From an uncultured Carboxylicivirga sp. (lineage in GTDB: Bacteria > Bacteroidota > Bacteroidia > Bacteroidales > Marinilabiliaceae), in assembly GCA_947503525.1 (NCBI GenBank), contig CANNEA010000010.1, forward strand, positions 1 to 64,000: 64,000 nt of DNA, in the 5' to 3' direction. Shown in pieces: positions 660 through 60,513 of the stretch. The notes beneath the pieces were generated by a model. The model was given only the letters and a program-made list of their open reading frames with translations, was not told the origin of the DNA and ran no database searches. The position numbers were made by a program, and so were the translations under genes. Positions within the stretch are counted from its first letter, which is position 1. Each line of letters starts with the position of its first letter.

Positions 660-3590
660 TTATTGCGCTACCAATTTAAATCTACTAACGCTACCCTCAG
701 CCGATCGAACATTAAGTAGAAAGATGCCACTACTTGGAGCTGTCCACTCATAGGAATCCATCATTTCAAATTGCTCAACAAATTGCCCGCCAATTGTATA
801 AATTGATACATAGGTCTTTCCTTTGCTAACTATCTTAGTGCTACCTATAAATGGATTTGGATAAGCATAGGCAAGCTTCTCATTAGTTTTTAAAGGATTT
901 AGATCTGTTGAAGTAGACTCTACAAAATCAACGGCATCAGGACCCACGTGGGATGCATCCAGAACACCATTTGTAATTATATCGGTGCCATTAAACTCAT
1001 CTGCACCTAAGTCCCTTAAGCCAATAGCAGGCTGGCCTTCGCTATCCATTGTAACATAACTGAAGACTGTAGCTGTTGGGTCTATCGCGACACTTGTATT
1101 TGACAATTTGTAAGTAGCAGTTGGCACAACATTAATGTTCCCATCAACTCTCGCACTAGTCAGTACCAAGCCAGGATTAACATTTAGAGCTTCGCCTGCT
1201 TCAAAAGCAATATCGCCCCAAGAACCTGTCCCGGAAGTGTAAATGATATTGTTTTCAAAATGCACATCTGCATCGGTACCTGCAAAGTGAACTGTAGTTA
1301 CAGGATTTGCATCTTGTACAATGATATTATTAGCTACTAAACAGTTAATTGGATCTTTTCCCCAATCGTCTCTGTAACCAATTTCAATATCAGAAGAACA
1401 ATTTACCATTGTATTGTGTGTAAACTCAAGGTTTTCTACTACATAATGCTTTGTAAGATCATCACCGTTATCAACTCCTTCGTTTAAGGCATCACCCTGT
1501 GTAAGCGTTAAAGCAGCATCCCAGCGAGAACCCGTAAGACCTTCGAAATAGTTGTTAAACACCTTGTGGTCTTTACCATAAATTCTAACACCTCCACAAC
1601 CAATTGATTCGCCATCAAACTGGGCAGTTTTATTTTGGCCTAGAAAATAGTTGCCGCTAACTTCTGTGCGGTTACCATGACGCAAGGATACCGTTCCTAA
1701 ACACTTGACAAATGTATTATTGCGTATATAATTGTCACATGACTTGACTGATATAATTTCAGGATCACCATCACATTCTTCAAACAAGTTATTTTCAACC
1801 GTACAGAAAGCTGAACTTAATGATAAATCACTCATGCCAACACGGATGGTTTCTTTTTCGTTGTCCATTCTAACTTGATTAAACCTAAAATGGTTGTGGT
1901 CAATCCTATCATACTGAGATACCTGTGGATCTCCTCCACCATGGCTACCATCAATAACTACCCAAGCACCTTTATCTTGTTTACCATCAAATAAGTTGTG
2001 GTCAATACGGTTGTGGTGACTTGCACACGATGTACCGTCCCATTCACCACCAATTAGTATTAGTTTAGAACCCCCACTACCCGCATTTTTAAAAGTGTTT
2101 TGAGTAATTCTAATATTATTACAGTCGGTAAGTTTAAATAAAGTATAAATTTCTACATCAAAGTCGAAACCTTTGAAAGTGATATAGGCACTATTTTCAA
2201 GCGAAAGTCTTCCATCGCCTGTGATTTTTACTCCGCCTATGGTTTCTGCTTCAATAAGTACCGGATATTCTTCTGTTCCACCTTTTGTATCAAAATTATC
2301 TCCAAAACCATCGTAATTTCCATCGGCAACAATTATGTGGTCGCCAGGTTGCAGATCATTCACAGCATCTTCAAATTCCTCCACACTTGAAACATTAATG
2401 GTTCTTGGAGAATAGACCCCTGCAGTAAATACAGCACTAACTGTCAAGTTTTCACTAAGCGTAACACTAACATCGTCATCTGATCCTGTAATGCCATTCC
2501 AGGAAGTAAAATTATATCCAATTCCTGAATTAGCTCTGAATCGAACAACATCACCTTCATAATAAGGACCTTCATCTGGAGATACAGTAACTGTTCCTCC
2601 TGTTGTTTGAGTAATATCTATAGTATATTCTGTTGGAGGATCATTTGGATCGATAATAACATCAGCACCAATTGTAATAGTAGCATCTACTGTTAAGGAA
2701 TAAGGATTGTCAGTACCTGAAATACCGCCAGTCCAACCATCAAACATATAATGGTCTGCTATGTTTGTACAAGTTACTGTAACAACATCACCAAGTTCAT
2801 AAACATTGTCTGCCTTAACCGGGCTTAAAGTAATTTCTCCTTTTTCAGGTTGGTCAACATTTATCGTTCTTGTTGTTGCAGGCGCAGCAAATGCAATGTC
2901 AGCGATAGGATTTGTACCAACGTATACACTACCAATAGCTACATCAGCAATGGCCTCTTCAAACATATAACGAATCACGTGAAATTCCTTCGTATCAGTA
3001 GCTCGTCCTCTTTCACTGGCATCATAACTTTCTCTAAAATCCAAACCCGTAGCTACAATAGTGCCATTAAGAGCTGCATCATATGTTAATGCTCCATAAT
3101 CTACACTAAACGAAATACGTACCCATTCACCAAGTGCATAACTTCCACAAACCGTCTTACTACTACCGTTATAAACTCTAACGTCACCAGCAACTCCATC
3201 AATTGGCATAAACTCCACCATAAAATGGCGTTTATCACTATTGTTTGGTGTTAAATCCCGTCCGGTTATTTGAAAATATTCATCCACTGGTGAACTCACT
3301 AACTTTACCCAACAATCCATATATAACTGTTCGGATAAACCTGTTTCATCTTTTGTATAGGCCAGGTAATCGAGTTCAAAATCACCAGAAACCTTTACGC
3401 CTTGCTTGCCTTCTTTAATGTAATCAGCGGTAGTAACAACCTCAGCTGTGCCTCCATCCCATTTGGTTTGACCATCGAGGTTACCTAAAGCATAATCATC
3501 AAAATTTGTGTCAATAACAATTGTTTGTGCGTTCAATACATTACTTGCTATAATAAGTATAACAAGTGTTAATAAGTGTAGTTTTTTCAT
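660..3590 (-). CDS. T9SS-secreted PL6 alginate lyase with jelly-roll and InlB-type repeat domains
   Basis: This is a secreted polysaccharide lyase that probably cleaves alginate outside the cell. Domains in order are: signal peptide (1-21, ending NAQ); a concanavalin/LamG-like jelly roll (about 23-235); two divergent InlB B-repeat-type beta domains (about 240-312 and 320-390, each with a W-G or W-N-G motif); a PL6 parallel beta-helix (about 395-860); and a C-terminal T9SS sorting domain (about 905-976, starting AYPNPF and ending in a G-x-Y/F strand pattern). The family's catalytic pair is present: Lys616 in ISVKS and Arg637 in LRHG, 21 residues apart as in chondroitinase B and other PL6 enzymes. 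The gene is divergent from another PL6 gene across a 253-base control region. PL6 also includes chondroitin lyases, so alginate is favoured, not proven. Confidence 0.9.
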   Translation of the reverse strand: MKKLHLLTLVILIIASNVLNAQTIVIDTNFDDYALGNLDGQTKWDGGTAEVVTTADYIKEGKQGVKVSGDFELDYLAYTKDETGLSEQLYMDCWVKLVSSPVDEYFQITGRDLTPNNSDKRHFMVEFMPIDGVAGDVRVYNGSSKTVCGSYALGEWVRISFSVDYGALTYDAALNGTIVATGLDFRESYDASERGRATDTKEFHVIRYMFEEAIADVAIGSVYVGTNPIADIAFAAPATTRTINVDQPEKGEITLSPVKADNVYELGDVVTVTCTNIADHYMFDGWTGGISGTDNPYSLTVDATITIGADVIIDPNDPPTEYTIDITQTTGGTVTVSPDEGPYYEGDVVRFRANSGIGYNFTSWNGITGSDDDVSVTLSENLTVSAVFTAGVYSPRTINVSSVEEFEDAVNDLQPGDHIIVADGNYDGFGDNFDTKGGTEEYPVLIEAETIGGVKITGDGRLSLENSAYITFKGFDFDVEIYTLFKLTDCNNIRITQNTFKNAGSGGSKLILIGGEWDGTSCASHHNRIDHNLFDGKQDKGAWVVIDGSHGGGDPQVSQYDRIDHNHFRFNQVRMDNEKETIRVGMSDLSLSSAFCTVENNLFEECDGDPEIISVKSCDNYIRNNTFVKCLGTVSLRHGNRTEVSGNYFLGQNKTAQFDGESIGCGGVRIYGKDHKVFNNYFEGLTGSRWDAALTLTQGDALNEGVDNGDDLTKHYVVENLEFTHNTMVNCSSDIEIGYRDDWGKDPINCLVANNIIVQDANPVTTVHFAGTDADVHFENNIIYTSGTGSWGDIAFEAGEALNVNPGLVLTSARVDGNINVVPTATYKLSNTSVAIDPTATVFSYVTMDSEGQPAIGLRDLGADEFNGTDIITNGVLDASHVGPDAVDFVESTSTDLNPLKTNEKLAYAYPNPFIGSTKIVSKGKTYVSIYTIGGQFVEQFEMMDSYEWTAPSSGIFLLNVRSAEGSVSRFKLVAQ

Positions 3591-53248: not shown

Positions 53249-53292
53249 TTTGAATTATTCAAAATGTTTTATCTACTTTGTATTGCAAAGTA
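53249..53292 (+). promoter_or_regulatory. Probable promoter with inverted repeat, XrtN system
   Basis: TTTG (53249-53252) is followed after 21 bases by TACTTTG (53274-53280), a near match to the -7 element. TACTTTG also forms one arm of an inverted repeat with CAAAGTA (53286-53292, 5-base gap), so a regulator could bind over the start site. Confidence 0.45.
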
Positions 53293-53309
53293 CTTTTAAT
53301 ACTTACAAC

Positions 53310-55790
53310 ATGAAAACAAACTTAACCCACATTCAGCAACTTGGAATAGGACTATTCATTGTCTCAATCTTCATCTATTTTTTAGTTCCTTCATCACAGT
53401 TAGAATTTGAAGGCTTATCCTTAATAAATTATGCCTTGGCCGGCTTCTATTTCTTAATCTCCTTTGGTGACACGAAAAAAGGTTCAAAATTCTACAAGCT
53501 TAAAATACCCAAACTAAACTGGCATCTCACATTAGCAATAATGTTTATTAGTTGCTTTACACTAAACAAGAGCATTAAAATATTTTCACCTGCAGCCAAT
53601 TGGCTTAATGTCTTTATTGTTATTATTTTAATAGCCTATATTATTTCAGCCATTTGCCTACAAATTCCTTCTTGGGCAAGACATCTTGCATCATTACTTT
53701 TAGGCTTTAGTATCGCCTTATATACTTATTACACCATTGCCCTATTACCCTACTCACCAATTGGAGTTATTGGTTTATTTTTACTTGGTATATCCATTCA
53801 TTTATTAATTCCTGCATTTTTACTTGGCACATCAATTTCCGTTGCGCTTAGCAAAAAACATACAAACATCTCAAGTCTATACACCTTAATAGGACTCATC
53901 CTTGCTTTGGTATTCACCATTATCTATTCCAGTCTTTACCACTATAATTTCAAACAAATTGAATCTGCTCAAAAGGAGATAGTTTTAAACGAAGTTCAGG
54001 AATTCCCGGAATGGGTGAATTATGCTCAAAAGTGTTCTTCACCCTTTTGGGCTAATCGAATAATTGGCGAAGGCTTTTTGTATGATACCTACAGTAAAGG
54101 CTGGTGGAGTTGGGACCTTAATAACACTTCCTTTAGAGAAATAAAAAGACATGATCCACTCGTGGCTACAGCAGCTTTATTTACCAATAAAGTGAGCTTA
54201 AGTTTTAAAGAAAAATCAAAAATCCTGGATGCGACTTCTAATACACGTCATTATTCATATGAAAAACTTTGGTCAGGAAAGGACTTAATAGTAACTAAGG
54301 AGCTATCAGATATTAGGTTATACCCTGATTACAGATTGGCTTACTTAGAGAAAAATATTTGGATAGAAAACACAAATACATGGGAAGGGAATCAACAAGA
54401 AGCTCTATTCACATTTTATTTACCTGAAGGTGCGGTAGCAACATCCTTATCCCTATGGATTGATGGGGTTGAAGAAAAGTCAAGATTAAGTACTCGAAAA
54501 AAAGCAGATACTGCCTATAAGACTATTGTAGGTCAGGAAAGACGAGATCCGGTAGTGCTACATTGGCAGGAAGGAAATCGTTTAACGGCAACGGTATTTC
54601 CTTGCACGCCAAAAGAAGCTCGTAGGATGAAATTAGGGCTTACCATTCCTCTTAACAAAAACAACAATGACTTAATGTTCAACAAACTTAAAATCCAAGG
54701 TTCGGATAATGCTTTTGCAAATGAAACAATTCATCTTAAAATTATTGGTAAAGCCGAACAAGTAAAGCTGCCATACTATTTCTCCAAGGAAAAAGATAAT
54801 CAATTCTACTACGAAGGCAAGACAATTGAAGATTGGACCTGCACTGTAGCTTCTGTCCCATTGAGTACAAAAGCCTTCCTTTTCAATGGTTACTCCTATC
54901 AAGTGGAAAGTCAAGAAACTATTTCATCCTTCACTCCAAATGCCATTTATTTGGATCTTAATTCAGAATGGTCAATAAATGAAGTTGAAACCATTCTACA
55001 AAGAGCCAATGGGATTTCGGTCTATATTTATGACAATACGTTTACTGAAATCAATTCCAAAACGTATTATAATATAGTCAAGCCTCTTCTTCGTAAACCG
55101 TTTAGCTTATTTCCAACTCATAAAATAAGTGATCGAGGAAATGCCTTATTAATTAGTAAAGGCAAAACAAATTCTCCAATTCCATCCGACTTAAAAAAAT
55201 CGAAATTCTATAACGACTTTGTCCTAAGTATGGGTAAGTTACCTATCCCTATTGCAAGCCTAATAATAGACGATAAAAAATCATCATATGTCAGTTCCCT
55301 GGAACAATACAACTTATTGAGATGCCAAACAACAGATTTAACTACTTTCGGCAGCACTCCGGTTTCAAAATGGTTCAGCCTTAATACTAAGGATTATGGT
55401 GCATCCTTGCCCATGGCACAAATGAAAATTACGCGCAGCAAATCAACTACTAATAATGATGTAAATGTGGCCCCTTCACACTTGATGCGTTTATATAATT
55501 ATCACACCATATTGCAAGAAGCCGGTCACTTGTTTCTTCAGGATAAAGAAGACATCCCCGATAACATTTACGAGCTTTGCAACGCAGCCTTTATTGTAAC
55601 TCCAATTTCAAGTTTAATTGTTTTAGAGACTATTAAAGATTATGAGCGTTTTGACATTGCGAAGAACAAAAACAGCCTTCACAATGCAAGTTTACAAGAC
55701 TCTGGTGCTGTTCCTGAACCCGGAGAATGGGCCTTAATTATTTCTTTAATTGTAATCGTAGGCTTCACTTATTTTAAATTCCGCAAATAA
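53310..55790 (+). CDS. XrtN-system VIT-domain membrane protein with PEP-CTERM-like tail
   Basis: This is the probable substrate of the exosortase encoded next. The frame is open to a TTG at 53250, but the ATG at 53310 gives 826 residues. The first 230 residues hold about seven or eight hydrophobic membrane segments. A vault/inter-alpha-trypsin (VIT)-like domain follows (about 280-440, with TLYLPEGAV-like FTFYLPEGAV and the repeated strand pattern). A large extracytoplasmic region (about 440-790) lacks recognisable enzyme motifs. The C terminus has GAVPEPGEWALIISLI, one hydrophobic helix and the basic end KFRK: a PEP-CTERM-type sorting signal. The layout matches the known family of XrtN-associated VIT proteins. 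The biological role is unknown. Confidence 0.85.
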   Translation: MKTNLTHIQQLGIGLFIVSIFIYFLVPSSQLEFEGLSLINYALAGFYFLISFGDTKKGSKFYKLKIPKLNWHLTLAIMFISCFTLNKSIKIFSPAANWLNVFIVIILIAYIISAICLQIPSWARHLASLLLGFSIALYTYYTIALLPYSPIGVIGLFLLGISIHLLIPAFLLGTSISVALSKKHTNISSLYTLIGLILALVFTIIYSSLYHYNFKQIESAQKEIVLNEVQEFPEWVNYAQKCSSPFWANRIIGEGFLYDTYSKGWWSWDLNNTSFREIKRHDPLVATAALFTNKVSLSFKEKSKILDATSNTRHYSYEKLWSGKDLIVTKELSDIRLYPDYRLAYLEKNIWIENTNTWEGNQQEALFTFYLPEGAVATSLSLWIDGVEEKSRLSTRKKADTAYKTIVGQERRDPVVLHWQEGNRLTATVFPCTPKEARRMKLGLTIPLNKNNNDLMFNKLKIQGSDNAFANETIHLKIIGKAEQVKLPYYFSKEKDNQFYYEGKTIEDWTCTVASVPLSTKAFLFNGYSYQVESQETISSFTPNAIYLDLNSEWSINEVETILQRANGISVYIYDNTFTEINSKTYYNIVKPLLRKPFSLFPTHKISDRGNALLISKGKTNSPIPSDLKKSKFYNDFVLSMGKLPIPIASLIIDDKKSSYVSSLEQYNLLRCQTTDLTTFGSTPVSKWFSLNTKDYGASLPMAQMKITRSKSTTNNDVNVAPSHLMRLYNYHTILQEAGHLFLQDKEDIPDNIYELCNAAFIVTPISSLIVLETIKDYERFDIAKNKNSLHNASLQDSGAVPEPGEWALIISLIVIVGFTYFKFRK

Positions 55791-55798
55791 AACGACCA

Positions 55799-57130
55799 AT
55801 GTTAGAATTCAGTAACATAGTCAACACTAATCGCAAATTCCTAAATAGGACTTTGCGGTTCTTTCCATTGATTGCGCTAGGTGCAATAGCCTTCTTAACA
55901 ATCAATCGTTTTGGCGGTTTACGTTTTGAGCAATACCTTTTTATACTCATACTGCCATTTACTTTGCGCAAAGCTCATGGCCAAGGCCAGCCAATGATTT
56001 TCATAAGTCTTTCCTTTGCTTTATTCTTGTTGTTTTTTCTTACTAATGTCTATAGTATTTTTTACCTAGCCGTTGGAATGGGTTTGTTTGCCTCTGTATT
56101 TTTAATCCAGCTCAGACCAAGTCTCTTATCCATCATACTGCTTGGATTAACAACACCAGCCGTTAAATATTTACTAAGTGTCTTTAGTTTTCCCATCAAA
56201 CTACAGCTTACTAGTTGGTCGGGTAGTATTCTCTCTATACTTTATTCAGATATTGAAATCGCAGGGAATTGTATTTACAATGGAGGCATTGAATTTACGG
56301 TTGCCCAAGAATGCCTTGGTTTAAGTATGATAAGTACAGCTTTGGCTTTTGCCATATTTATCATGGCTTTTATATCAACCAATACTCACAAAAAACCACC
56401 CTTTTATCTCATTGTACTGTTTTTAATTAGCTCTGTTTTATTGGTTACACTAGCTAACCTATCTCGCATAGTTTTAACAATAAGTTTAAATGCCATGCCT
56501 GATACATTCGTCCACGAGTTAATCGGCATTCTACTATTCATTAGTAATTGCTGCCTCCCACTTATCGTTTTAGGAAGATATACAAAGCGGTATTACAAGA
56601 CGATCAGAACTGAAAAATTATATAAAATCTCGAATAGCTATTGGTCAATCATCCTACCTGTGCTTGCCTTATTTAGCCTTCTTATTGAAGAAAATAAGTT
56701 AGCCCCTGATTTTAATTCCGATAACATAGAGTTAACAGGCTTCTCAAAAGAAACCAGAAAAGATGGTATCGTTAAATTTCGGAATAAAGAATCACTTATC
56801 TATGTCAAGCCGCCCGCATTCACTTTAGGTTCGGATCACAATCCGTTTATTTGCTGGAAGGCAAGTGGTTATTCTATTAAAAACGAGCAAGAAATAAAGC
56901 TTGGCCAGTTTATGGCCTATACCTTTGAACTCCACAAAAAGGACGAACAAACACTTTACTCGTGCTGGTGGTATAGCAATGGGTACAATAATACAATTAG
57001 TCAGTTAGATTGGCGCCTAGCCATGCTAAATGGTGAAAAACCCTATTGTGTTATTAATACTACAAGTACTGAAAAATCCCAAACAGTAGAACTCACAAAA
57101 CTTTTGATGAGTCAAAACTTTATAGATTGA
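55799..57130 (+). CDS. xrtN: Exosortase N with C-terminal extension
   Basis: Exosortases are membrane transpeptidase-like enzymes that recognise PEP-CTERM-type tails. This 443-residue protein has about eight membrane helices (residues 20-260). The catalytic triad of the family is visible: Cys172 in QECLGLSM, Arg223 in LANLSRIVL and His239 in FVHELIGILLF. A further helix (about 283-297) leads to a soluble C-terminal domain (about 300-443) that looks like the EpsI/DUF3485-type domain often joined to exosortases (GYSIKNEQEIKL, WWYSNGYN). It begins 8 bases after its likely single substrate. I place it in the XrtN type from this pairing. Confidence 0.88.
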   Translation: MLEFSNIVNTNRKFLNRTLRFFPLIALGAIAFLTINRFGGLRFEQYLFILILPFTLRKAHGQGQPMIFISLSFALFLLFFLTNVYSIFYLAVGMGLFASVFLIQLRPSLLSIILLGLTTPAVKYLLSVFSFPIKLQLTSWSGSILSILYSDIEIAGNCIYNGGIEFTVAQECLGLSMISTALAFAIFIMAFISTNTHKKPPFYLIVLFLISSVLLVTLANLSRIVLTISLNAMPDTFVHELIGILLFISNCCLPLIVLGRYTKRYYKTIRTEKLYKISNSYWSIILPVLALFSLLIEENKLAPDFNSDNIELTGFSKETRKDGIVKFRNKESLIYVKPPAFTLGSDHNPFICWKASGYSIKNEQEIKLGQFMAYTFELHKKDEQTLYSCWWYSNGYNNTISQLDWRLAMLNGEKPYCVINTTSTEKSQTVELTKLLMSQNFID

Positions 57131-57357: not shown

Positions 57358-57540
57358 ATGAAAACATTATTAAGAACATTTGCATTTGCCTTTATTTTAG
57401 GAATTACGTTCACAGCCTGTTCAAACGATGATACGTATACACCTGCAACAGACAATCCGGTTGAACGTCCTTTACCAAATGATCCTGATACAGATTATGC
57501 GCCAGGTCGTCCAACACCAGGAGGTCCAAATCCTGAATAA
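57358..57540 (+). CDS. Micro-lipoprotein, copy 1
   Basis: This 60-residue lipoprotein has a signal peptide (MKTLLRTFAFAFILGITFTAC) and a mature part of about 40 residues rich in Pro, Asp and Asn that ends RPTPGGPNPE. It has no folded domain of obvious type. It is the first of two tandem copies 258 bases apart (ATG to ATG), each with the same leader sequence (AAGCAATTATTAAT) before the start. It lies 227 bases after the exosortase gene on the same strand, with no terminator between them that I can see. A role as a small partner of the exosortase system is a guess from position. Confidence 0.7.
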   Translation: MKTLLRTFAFAFILGITFTACSNDDTYTPATDNPVERPLPNDPDTDYAPGRPTPGGPNPE

Positions 57541-57615
57541 ATAGCAACGTTTATTACAAACCAACAAGTATAGAGAATCAACACAAGCAATTATTAATAA
57601 TTAAACACAGAAATC

Positions 57616-57798
57616 ATGAAGACTTTAATGAAAACATTTGCCATTGCATTTATTGTAGGAATAACATTCTCAGCATGCTCAAGTGACGACAATTACACGC
57701 CTGCTACCGACAATCCGGTGGATCGTCCATTCCCAATAAACCCAGATACTGAATATGCACCAGAGCGCCCAACACCAGGAGGTCCAAACCCTGAGTAA
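57616..57798 (+). CDS. Micro-lipoprotein, copy 2
   Basis: This copy is the same length as the first and about 75-80% alike by eye. The signal peptide ends FSAC, the linker is SSDDNYTPATDNPVDRP, and the last ten residues (RPTPGGPNPE) match exactly. Differences are mostly conservative and concentrated in the signal peptide and middle (for example LPNDPDTDYAPG versus FPINPDTEYAPE). Equal length without indels suggests that both are kept by selection. A hairpin downstream (57899-57923) may end the transcript. Confidence 0.7.
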   Translation: MKTLMKTFAIAFIVGITFSACSSDDNYTPATDNPVDRPFPINPDTEYAPERPTPGGPNPE

Positions 57799-57898: not shown

Positions 57899-57923
57899 AG
57901 CCCAAACACCTGGTGTTTGGGCT
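57899..57923 (+). terminator. Hairpin after the micro-lipoprotein genes
   Basis: An 11-bp perfect stem (57899-57909 with 57913-57923, loop of 3) followed by TTT is about 100 bases after the second copy's stop. The T-tract is short, so termination efficiency is uncertain. Confidence 0.5.
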
Positions 57924-57980
57924 TTGGTATATAATTACATAATGTCCAGGGATAATATGCAATTACAGTAGTAAAATCCC

Positions 57981-58190
57981 ATTTTCCCCAATCAAATCTG
58001 GTTTTCCCCGATTGCAATCGTATTTTCCCCTACTTCAATCCTGAATCTCCCTATTACAATTCCATTTCTCCCTATTACAATCGCATTTCTTTCCAATGCA
58101 AATGTAATTCTACCTAGCTCAATCTCGTATTTCCCTATCACATTCACGGTTTTATCCAGTGCAATGCCATTTCTAATTACTACATTTCCA
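57981..58190. repeat. Ten in-register 21-bp tandem repeats
   Basis: Ten units of exactly 21 bases run without indels from 57981 to 58190, with an approximate consensus (+ strand) TTTTCCCCTATTACAATCC. Units differ by many substitutions, yet the period never breaks. Two neighbouring units (58044-58064 and 58065-58085) are closest to each other. On the - strand the array translates as heptads of the form xVIGRNGI within an open frame of 72 codons (58210 to 57992). The array lies in the gap between two convergent transcription units. Confidence 0.85.
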
Positions 58191-58202
58191 TCATTAAAAA
58201 AC

Positions 58203-58230
58203 AAAGCCACAACCCTTTGGTTGCAGCTTT
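58203..58230 (-). terminator. Terminator of the second alginate operon
   Basis: A 12-bp stem (58203-58214 with 58219-58230, loop of 4) is fully paired in - strand RNA when two G-U pairs are counted, and is followed by T residues (58200-58195). It lies 64 bases past the alginate lyase stop codon. Confidence 0.7.
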
Positions 58231-58293
58231 ATCAAGAATAACTATCAATACATGTCAGTTTAAATCAAACGTTATTCCTATCGAACTATTTTT

Positions 58294-60513
58294 TTATTTA
58301 ATCTGATAAGTATCACCCGGTTCAAGTACTTTTGTTATCACTTGCCCTTTGGATGTAATTTCTAATTCAACGGCTTCCGGACTTAATAAATATACTTGCC
58401 AGTAATCAGCCAACTTATTCAGGTAGATATCAGCAATAGCTGATAGCTGAATACTATTATCTTCTATGCTTAGGTTTTGGACATTAAACAAATAATGTTG
58501 AGATCCTTTTGAAAGGCTTTGCACTTGTTTGCCACCCGCATTAAGCAAAGCACTGTTTCGTTCCCAATCTTTAAGTCTGTAATTATCGCTTTCGTCAATT
58601 CTGCTGCTATATCCTTTATATGGGTAGATAACAGTGATAAACGAAAATGCTTTTTCATCAATTTTTGAAACTATATTCCACTGCTTTCCTCTGGAACCAG
58701 ATGATTTGATACTATCTGTGGGAATCAGTTGCCATATATCACATCCACTGGCATCCGAAAAACTACTTCGCAATAAGTCAGATCCATTTTCGGAGGAATA
58801 ATGACCTTGCCACACCTGTTTGTAACTATGCTCAGTATCTGACTGGAAATTATCTTTCACAATCCAGAATTCATCCTTCACATAAATCACTTGTCGGCTA
58901 TACTCAACACCAATATCTTCAAAACCGTCGTGTGAACCTATATGTAAATCAAAATTAGTATTGCTCTGCCATGCTATTGTTGTGGGTTGAGGCAGTTGCT
59001 TAAACTTACCAAAACCACTTCCACCCTTATTGGATGTCCATTTTTTTCCCTGCAATTCATCATCTACGAGGGCTACATTTTTTACTAAAGAGTTTTTAAA
59101 CAGCTCAAAATCACTTAGTGAATAACGCACTTGATAATTGGGCAAAATGCATTGTCCATTAGCCATGGCCTGCACACCCAGCATATCGCCATGTTGATGA
59201 TCCGGTTTTTTCTCATCCAAACCAGCACTAATGATCATCATTTTATCGTTCGTACTCCAACCTTCCCGCATAATGTAATAATGCGTATCCGGAAAGCTTA
59301 AGGAACCATATGACGGTAGTTTAGCATTAAGGTGGCTCAAACTTTCAAGCTGGCTTTGCCTTAAAAACCAATACATCTTTGGGCTTACTTCTGGCTCTGA
59401 AAAATAAGCTATTTCATCATCTTCGAACAATATGTATCCAAGAGACATTGTGCTCGCAATGGCATTCTTTTCAGCCCAGGGATTATCTGTATCGTCTTGT
59501 AATACAGGAGCACTTTTATCTGGATATGCCACTTTTGCCAAAGTTGTAAAAAGTGATTTCAGTTGAGCTTCCCATAAGGGATCAACTTCAATTTCACTGT
59601 TCTTCACCAATTGATATACATAGAAATAGTTGCCTATATCGCTCATGTGGTAATGCACCGAACGTTCAAACTGGAAACCATCTGGATTAATTTCTTTTTG
59701 CATATGTGCTTTTAATAGCTCCATAGCATGTTGATACCACTGATCTGTTCCTTCAAAATCACGAAATAAAATAGCTAGCATAGCCAGAGCTGACATTCCA
59801 CGGGTTTGATGATTGCCTGATTTAAACTTAGCATTAGTATGATATAAATGCGCACCATGCTGCAATAGTGTTGCTATTGTTTGCAACTGCATCTTGTCAG
59901 TATAAGCCTCTTCACCCAAAAATAAGTTGTGAATACTTAACCAATTCAAAACACGATACCCCGAACGAAATGCTTCATACACCCCATTGCCATCTTCAAT
60001 ACTTTCGAATTTGTTGGTATGAAAAGCAGTATTTAAAGATCTTAACTGTGTGTGCCAGTAATGAATGTATTTTGGGTCTTTATCTTCATAAAAATAAAGA
60101 TATGCAATATCCATCATTTTATGCTGACGTGCCAAATGACGCAAGGCATACGAATTAACCGGCGATCCATTTAAATAATTAAATGGCAGTTTCCAGATGG
60201 TCGAATCCGCATATTTACCCATGTGGTCTTGAGCTCTATCACGATGCCCATTTTCATTTACGTAAAGCTGGTTATAGAGTTCAAAACGCTCATTTACATT
60301 TTGATAATCATAAAAGAATCGCTTGGTAAACTGCTCTCGATAATAAACAGCCAAATCCTTGTCATTCTTTAGCTTCCCTTTAAATTCTTGCTTAAGGTAC
60401 TTCGACAATTCAGACGTCTCCAACACTTTATCATGCGGAATTTTTTTAGCCGACACTGAAACTGCCACGCAAGCAACAATAATAAATCCAAGTAATCTTT
60501 GCCAGTTCATCAT
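58294..60513 (-). CDS. Heparinase II/III-fold alginate lyase (PL17/PL39-like)
   Basis: This is a probable exolytic oligoalginate lyase. A signal peptide (1-22, VSVSA) is followed by an alpha/alpha-toroid domain (about 30-370) and a C-terminal beta-sandwich heparinase II/III domain (about 400-700). Candidate catalytic residues match the PL17 layout: Asn234-His235 in KSGNHQTRG, Tyr288 in RSVHYHMSD, and His441 in HQHGDMLG. Spacing is close to, but not the same as, PL17 enzymes. Without a search I cannot decide between PL17 and PL39. It ends the cluster and lies 6 bases after a PL6 gene, so both are in one operon. In such pairs the PL6 enzyme supplies oligomers that this enzyme cuts to monomers. 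Confidence 0.82.
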   Translation of the reverse strand: MMNWQRLLGFIIVACVAVSVSAKKIPHDKVLETSELSKYLKQEFKGKLKNDKDLAVYYREQFTKRFFYDYQNVNERFELYNQLYVNENGHRDRAQDHMGKYADSTIWKLPFNYLNGSPVNSYALRHLARQHKMMDIAYLYFYEDKDPKYIHYWHTQLRSLNTAFHTNKFESIEDGNGVYEAFRSGYRVLNWLSIHNLFLGEEAYTDKMQLQTIATLLQHGAHLYHTNAKFKSGNHQTRGMSALAMLAILFRDFEGTDQWYQHAMELLKAHMQKEINPDGFQFERSVHYHMSDIGNYFYVYQLVKNSEIEVDPLWEAQLKSLFTTLAKVAYPDKSAPVLQDDTDNPWAEKNAIASTMSLGYILFEDDEIAYFSEPEVSPKMYWFLRQSQLESLSHLNAKLPSYGSLSFPDTHYYIMREGWSTNDKMMIISAGLDEKKPDHQHGDMLGVQAMANGQCILPNYQVRYSLSDFELFKNSLVKNVALVDDELQGKKWTSNKGGSGFGKFKQLPQPTTIAWQSNTNFDLHIGSHDGFEDIGVEYSRQVIYVKDEFWIVKDNFQSDTEHSYKQVWQGHYSSENGSDLLRSSFSDASGCDIWQLIPTDSIKSSGSRGKQWNIVSKIDEKAFSFITVIYPYKGYSSRIDESDNYRLKDWERNSALLNAGGKQVQSLSKGSQHYLFNVQNLSIEDNSIQLSAIADIYLNKLADYWQVYLLSPEAVELEITSKGQVITKVLEPGDTYQIK

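Follow-up and report, generated by a model that had tools for sequence, protein, structure and literature searches.

A run of ten 21-bp repeats between the 3' ends of a lipoprotein gene pair and a lyase gene raises the question of what holds so strict a period in units that have drifted so far apart in sequence. The window analyzed is a stretch of 64,000 nucleotides (G000:C10:1-64000, from a genome of 6.56 Mb), in which ten 21-bp units lie in register at 57989-58198. The mean identity at lags of 21, 42 and 63 bp is 0.559; across 1000 dinucleotide shuffles, the highest value at any lag from 10 to 44 was 0.397. The periodicity is far beyond chance, and the description given by an earlier sequence-only reading, of ten tandem 21-bp units set apart by substitutions, is borne out with the register now placed. 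The units have diverged strongly, Tandem Repeats Finder recovering just 2.1 copies, at 58046-58090, and the best-kept letters in plus orientation are an A, a CAAT block and the Ts of a TTTCT block. On the minus strand, the gene-sense orientation of the family, the unit is approximately GATTGNANTAGGGAGAAATNN. The features around the array are as follows.

57616..57798, plus strand: 60-aa lipoprotein-like ORF, paralog of that at 57358-57540 (ORF list)
57900..57922, plus strand: inverted repeat after the lipoprotein genes, a likely terminator (read from the sequence; absent from the consensus terminator scan output)
57968..57988, minus strand: weaker eleventh unit (unit list; weak model match at 57970-58009, E 1.3)
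57989..58198, minus strand (family, or gene-sense, orientation): core array of ten 21-bp units (register, unit comparison, shuffles, held-out family profile)
58200..58233, minus strand: terminator-like hairpin of the lyase gene, abutting the array (consensus scan; 2 sites in the region, 2.4 expected by chance)
58294..60513, minus strand: heparinase II/III-type (alginate-lyase-like) gene, its 3' end beside the array (Pfam Hepar_II_III N and C)

The two tandem paralogous lipoprotein-like ORFs (57358-57798) come after a region, 53250-57130, that holds an exosortase N gene and an XrtN-system VIT-domain protein. The lyase locus of two relatives (L042 and L043) carries no array; these 5.2-kb loci provide no clean empty site, because the XrtN and lipoprotein neighbours of the window are missing there as well.

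A coding array, either read-through or a small heptad protein, had been suggested first, and both the open frames of the window copy and a period that is a multiple of 3 speak for it. The 72-codon minus-strand frame exists (57992-58210), an 88-codon stop-free frame spans the scanned core, and frames are open on both strands. As a sign of coding the claim fails, since the units show no codon-phase bias: pairwise differences at the three codon positions are 0.419/0.514/0.435 in the window array and 0.381/0.442/0.415 in the copy on contig C1 (L002), with no third-position excess in either. Of the 95 related arrays described below, 76 have a stop in each of the six frames and 19 keep a stop-free frame, which argues against read-through coding and against selection on the heptapeptides. 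A YadA-head or beta-roll repeat protein was likewise rejected, the sole repeat-protein hint in the profile search being YadA_head at E = 0.35 over 10 residues, which is not significant. The open frames are thus no evidence for coding, the window array does not look coding, and we regard a coding role as extremely improbable.

The sequence-only reading had held that coding or functional selection would be unlikely if there were neither transcripts nor a second copy in the genome. Such a copy was found: a 291-bp query against the own genome (E < 0.01) recovers a second site, C1:269.8k (E 0.0056), which is a 21-bp array of the window unit. A model built from three-unit windows matches the window and C1 arrays, with no third match at E ≤ 0.01 among the 150 of 1985 candidates scored. 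Just 3' of the C1 array is a gene for 217 aa, which scores 151 bits against NF052641, 'PQLLE family protein' (cut-off 80). The window array is an orphan copy without an adjoining PQLLE gene, the nearest NF052641 match on contig C10 being at 172.3 kb (genome search, E ≤ 1e-5).

The C1 PQLLE protein returned seven matches in its own genome, representing six genes at five places, and a 21-, 42-, 61- or 63-bp lag is present at each of the seven loci. The array is found on the 5' side of the PQLLE gene on C1, C7, C2 and C9 (about 400 bp away on C9); on C3 a slipped array, missed by the own-genome period scan, lies between two PQLLE genes. The array units of these paralogs differ from each other, C1 and the window excepted. 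The period scan covered 1.59 Mb in stretches partly chosen for PQLLE-type genes, at periods 13-60; seven of its 15 matches have period 21, three are a 42-bp harmonic at the same loci, and the rest have periods of 18 (two), 15, 41 and 54. Five of the seven 21-bp arrays are 5' of a PQLLE gene or of a relative under the cut-off (C10:172 kb), a count that leaves out the C5 locus, which is some 1.4 kb 3' of a weak relative. The orphans among the seven are the window array and C7:241.5k. The latter (L206:1486-1737) consists of about 11 units of sequence unlike the window unit and lies 5' of an ORF of 123-124 aa that has a helix-turn-helix look on reading and no NCBIfam match.

Beyond the own genome the window unit itself found few matches. 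Its model, R1, matched 1 of 14 genus genomes (the own genome), 6 of 71 family genomes (the own genome included) and 2 of 393 order genomes, in searches that scored 13 to 150 candidates per genome, so that misses are likely. Among the five other family genomes, G070 has a 42-bp array of two 21-bp halves and G017 a short 21-bp stretch; the remaining three matches are no clean 21-bp arrays on reading. The array in G070 (L031:1240-1786, contig C352) is long, alternates its two halves and runs off the contig end. At a separate locus, L032:1300-1690 (G034:C439), a 23S_rRNA_IVP gene, coding for a four-helix bundle, is preceded by a pyrimidine-rich array with a phasing of about 10-11 bp.

Because the C1 copy of the window unit adjoins a PQLLE gene, PQLLE loci were examined across the phylum. 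All 14 genus genomes, and none of 14 control genomes, have NF052641 matches over the cut-off; in a phylum sample the family was patchy, found in 9 of 395 genomes and over the cut-off in 6. In named genomes, scanning confirmed 108 relatives and the top 80 were retained, most of them from Bacteroidales/Marinilabiliales and Flavobacteriales; single MAGs carry the labels Ignavibacteria and Lentisphaeria. Four loci with less than 250 bp upstream (L103, L120, L127 and L147) were dropped and 76 were tested.

The top lag, of all those from 10 to 63, within 800 bp upstream was 42 in 33 loci, 21 in 26 and 63 in 9, or 68 of 76. A strict test, combining a top lag of 21, 42 or 63 with an identity of at least 0.5, was passed upstream of the PQLLE gene at 66 of 76 loci, a count inflated by near-identical cassettes (L087, L094-L096, L099-L101, L104, L150 and L151). 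The same test was passed in tiles further out at the same loci in 9 of 144 and 2 of 126 cases (together 11 of 270), in 0 of 57 other own-genome tiles and in 1 of 79 window tiles, taken to be the window array itself; these control tiles are largely coding and thus not matched to the upstream regions for sequence type. Five of the failures (L079, L109, L112, L116 and L124) have a top lag of 21 or 42 downstream, L074 and L075 show a weaker 42 or 41 downstream, L123 and L145 have 62 or 61 upstream, and L119 has neither an upstream nor a downstream signal.

In the genus set, 16 of 32 loci passed, partly because tandem PQLLE pairs carry one array between the genes. In a further 16 loci, 21, 42 or 63 came out on top in 11 and 41 or 61 in three (L156, L166 and L168); L161 is short and L167 showed nothing of note. 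The lags of 41, 61 or 62 bp are small slips: 'indel-free', as the window array had been described, is right for the window copy and does not extend to all of its relatives. A typical array has about 11 units of 21 bp and ends at a median of 50 bp before the PQLLE start codon. The 21-bp arrays are therefore linked to PQLLE genes across Bacteroidota, on the 5' side of the gene. Nothing was found for a transcription-collision buffer, which had also been proposed, and the related arrays sit 5' of genes.

By threshold, 95 of 108 upstream regions (32 + 76, with some loci in both sets) had an array; removal of 17 duplicate or weak ones left 78 for motif work, and 77 were used for comparison of units and proteins. 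A degenerate gene-sense core, C..[TG]AAG[GC]AA..CA, is common to the 78 arrays at 3.05 bits, against a null mean of 1.47 and maximum of 1.52 bits (40 starts on the real arrays; 10 null runs of 10 starts each). In 69 of 78 arrays the sense strand is the better match to this core. A family profile from which the window and its C1 sister array were both held out scored 5.71 on the minus strand of the window array and 4.16 on the plus strand, for a family mean of 5.46; the minus orientation of the window unit is the one that matches the family core.

Over all pairs of the 77 loci, binned by protein identity from below 25% to above 80%, same-strand unit similarity runs 0.28, 0.27, 0.31, 0.37, 0.38, 0.54 and 0.70 (null 0.27), and opposite-strand similarity stays flat at 0.24-0.31. 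The array unit thus co-diverges with the PQLLE protein. Below about 35% protein identity no likeness between units is detectable, and the 21-bp period remains.

Nine near pairs, which share branches, show how the arrays change. Internal indels of a length other than 21 bp number 3 per 291 substitutions in the arrays against 15 per 174 in the 3' flanks, two gaps of 60 being excluded as padding artefacts (5 printed, 3 counted). The L131 and L132 arrays differ by exactly one unit. In 8 of the 9 pairs, substitutions are as many in the arrays as in the flanks or more. In a pairwise comparison of core with other unit positions, in which several pairs align poorly, the core is barely slower (0.27 vs 0.31), a difference given no weight as support. 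Between L087 and L095, L096 and L099, array substitutions exceed those of the 3' flank about three to four times (28 v 9, 38 v 10 and 40 v 10); L131/L132 runs the opposite way, with 11 array and 62 flank substitutions. The proposal of selection on spacing gains support here, from a period common to loci with unlike units and from the scarcity of small indels relative to substitutions. The same persistence of period supports two helical turns as its natural length.

At the RNA level, the purine fraction of the gene-sense strand is 0.61 in the arrays against 0.51 in the 5' flank, and a simple scan found a terminator-like hairpin between array and gene at 0 of 78 loci. Folding gave a mean z of -0.47 for the sense and -0.45 for the antisense strand, indicating no consistent RNA fold. 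A structured RNA repeat was rejected on these means, though 12 of 78 sense-strand arrays have z < -2. Rfam returned a single match in 8 loci, at 28.6 bits and thus under the gathering score of 55.

Structure prediction makes the PQLLE protein a rod of helices with an internal duplication. The AlphaFold2 model (58 sequences; pLDDT 95.4, pTM 0.80) is all-helical and consists of two similar halves with a 56-residue helix in each, the duplication being read from helix order. Foldseek found no fold match in PDB and BFVD at E ≤ 0.001; the best-ranked PDB entries are stretches of coiled coil, SMC arms among them. PADLOC had no match for two PQLLE proteins, and Pfam nothing of note for four; the C1 paralog touches Pfam DUF494 at 4e-5. 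No literature on the family name was found, NF052641 being named without a function.

The commonest Pfam families in neighbouring genes are those of restriction methylases (MmeI_Mtase, Eco57I and N6_Mtase, 4 each, and Methylase_S, 3; partly the same proteins, with 107 of 129 neighbour ORFs scanned), and PADLOC gave a similar picture. These raw counts are a hint that PQLLE genes may lie in defence islands. The array-gene unit moves between lineages: Lutibacter and Balneicella, which we take to be of different orders, share 84% over 1054 columns covering the array end, the gene and the 3' tail. No PQLLE relative was found on phages or plasmids (one query protein each; 72,556 plasmid records) or viral contigs (one alignment).

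Several transferred units (L087, L095, L096, L099 and L104) share a sharp right boundary near 3408, about 250 bp after the PQLLE stop. Past it, L087 and L095 have a long imperfect attC-like palindrome, where a consensus attC scan returned no site; L096 folds differently, and L099 and L104 show an apparent group II intron end. An origin as integron gene cassettes is possible for some PQLLE units, judging by these sequences. Just 3' of PQLLE genes, at about 22 places (e.g. L082:3182 and L087:3189), is a conserved hairpin TTGGCAAG...CTTGCCAA within a longer GTAAGC...GCTTAC stem; it was not seen after the PQLLE genes of the own genome. In L104, L136, L150 and L151 the PQLLE reading frames are broken in otherwise conserved units, and intact copies exist elsewhere.

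We favour an explanation in which the repeats of the window are an orphan member of a class of non-coding arrays acting in cis, each with about ten sites placed every two turns of B-DNA (21 bp) and normally found just 5' of a PQLLE-family (NF052641) gene. The PQLLE protein or its oligomer may bind such an array co-operatively, with about one protomer or dimer per unit; spacing would be the constrained property, and unit sequence a cognate code drifting with the protein. Self-regulation, or the nucleation of an assembly beside its own gene, would be the likely use. Because the window unit matches the C1 array unit, the C1 PQLLE protein is the predicted binder of the window array, in trans. Duplex DNA would be the most likely target, since 21 bp is two turns and the length is the property that is kept.

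A protein-binding array was one option of the sequence-only reading, and the period and indel evidence supports it as a reading. The C1 copy 5' of a PQLLE gene, the 66/76 linkage, unit-protein co-divergence, the shared core, scarce indels, lack of a consistent RNA fold and the confident rod-like model were also counted in its favour. Against it were counted a model that resembles no DNA-binding fold, the 12/78 arrays that fold with z < -2, a core only slightly slower (0.27 vs 0.31) and controls that are largely coding. The linkage is observed and the binding we infer; the reading of the array as sites bound by its cognate PQLLE protein, with their spacing under constraint, has, in our judgment, an even chance of being correct.

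The sense-strand purine excess and the lack of a hairpin before the gene fit an RNA leader equally well, and an RNA-level role is the main rival. Here the repeats would be transcribed together with the gene, in a purine-rich 5' leader or a small RNA, and their RNA motif would be bound by the PQLLE rod or by a factor associated with the ribosome; repeat-RNA antidotes and TRAP-type regulators offer parallels. An RNA array that is transcribed and unstructured is a live alternative because the sense strand is purine-rich, the median distance to the start codon is 50 bp and hairpins intervene at 0/78 loci, and the tie of the motif to the gene-sense strand in 69/78 arrays agrees with it. The folding scores and the lack of an Rfam match at gathering score in 8 loci weigh against it, as does the strict 21-nt spacing, less natural for single-stranded RNA, and we consider it rather unlikely. 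Since 2 of the 7 own-genome 21-bp arrays have no PQLLE gene, the array may serve another protein too. In the stronger form of that idea, the sites would belong to a regulator or nucleoid protein of the host, and PQLLE would be just a gene that often lies nearby or is a target; orphan arrays (the window; C7:241.5k 5' of its helix-turn-helix-like ORF) are what it predicts, but units that differ between paralogs in one genome and co-diverge with PQLLE are unlike the sites of one shared host protein, which makes it improbable. A neutral or mutational tandem repeat, spread by duplication and by hitch-hiking with mobile genes, would account for whole units gained and lost (L131/L132) and for array substitutions that equal or exceed the flank in 8/9 pairs. 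It sits poorly with a single period where units are unrelated, with the rarity of small indels, with the core common to the arrays and with their constant position ahead of a single gene family, and is very unlikely.

The linkage ties a DNA element to a protein family so far named but not studied, whose function thereby becomes directly testable. Many unrelated units under one period allow selection on spacing to be separated from selection on sequence, and natural protein/site pairs over a wide divergence are useful for studying joint change of a binder and its sites. Tentatively, and with somewhat more doubt than belief, the whole may be a widespread, horizontally moving two-part system of Bacteroidota, in which a helical rod is paired with a cognate molecular-ruler array whose spacing is kept and whose recognition sequence is rewritten with the protein. 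It would represent a novel type of device for self-recognition or for nucleating an assembly, might have its home in defence islands, and would use orphan arrays such as that of the window as remote docking sites.

A title-level literature search found no earlier description of NF052641 genes paired with strict 21-bp arrays. The genes beside the related arrays belong to the NF052641 PQLLE family; the window copy differs in having no such gene. Iterons and parC are familiar examples of direct repeats placed ahead of the gene whose product binds them. Iteron arrays are direct repeats of about 20 bp before the Rep gene of their binder, with a unit specific for the cognate protein. PQLLE arrays resemble them in having repeats of about 20 bp before a gene; cognate specificity is an iteron feature that we infer here. 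Unlike iterons, PQLLE arrays are chromosomal, with no match to one PQLLE query in 72,556 plasmid records, and an iteron replicon was rejected for want of a plasmid, phage or viral-contig relative and of any Rep-like family or fold match. Type III toxin-antitoxin loci of the ToxIN kind also have tandem repeats directly before a protein gene, and PQLLE loci share this layout; the ToxIN units are longer and near-identical, whereas PQLLE units are diverged and 21 nt long and the protein is predicted to be all-helical. A type III system was rejected, as two PQLLE proteins matched no ToxN/CptN/TenpN-type toxin in Pfam or PADLOC and the simple scan found a terminator between repeats and gene at 0/78 loci. 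In the ParR/parC centromere, a small protein encoded at the locus reads about ten phased repeats. PQLLE loci differ from it in that no ParM or ParR homologue was seen and the fold is a predicted helical rod, and resemble it in combining about ten phased repeats with a small protein at the same locus.
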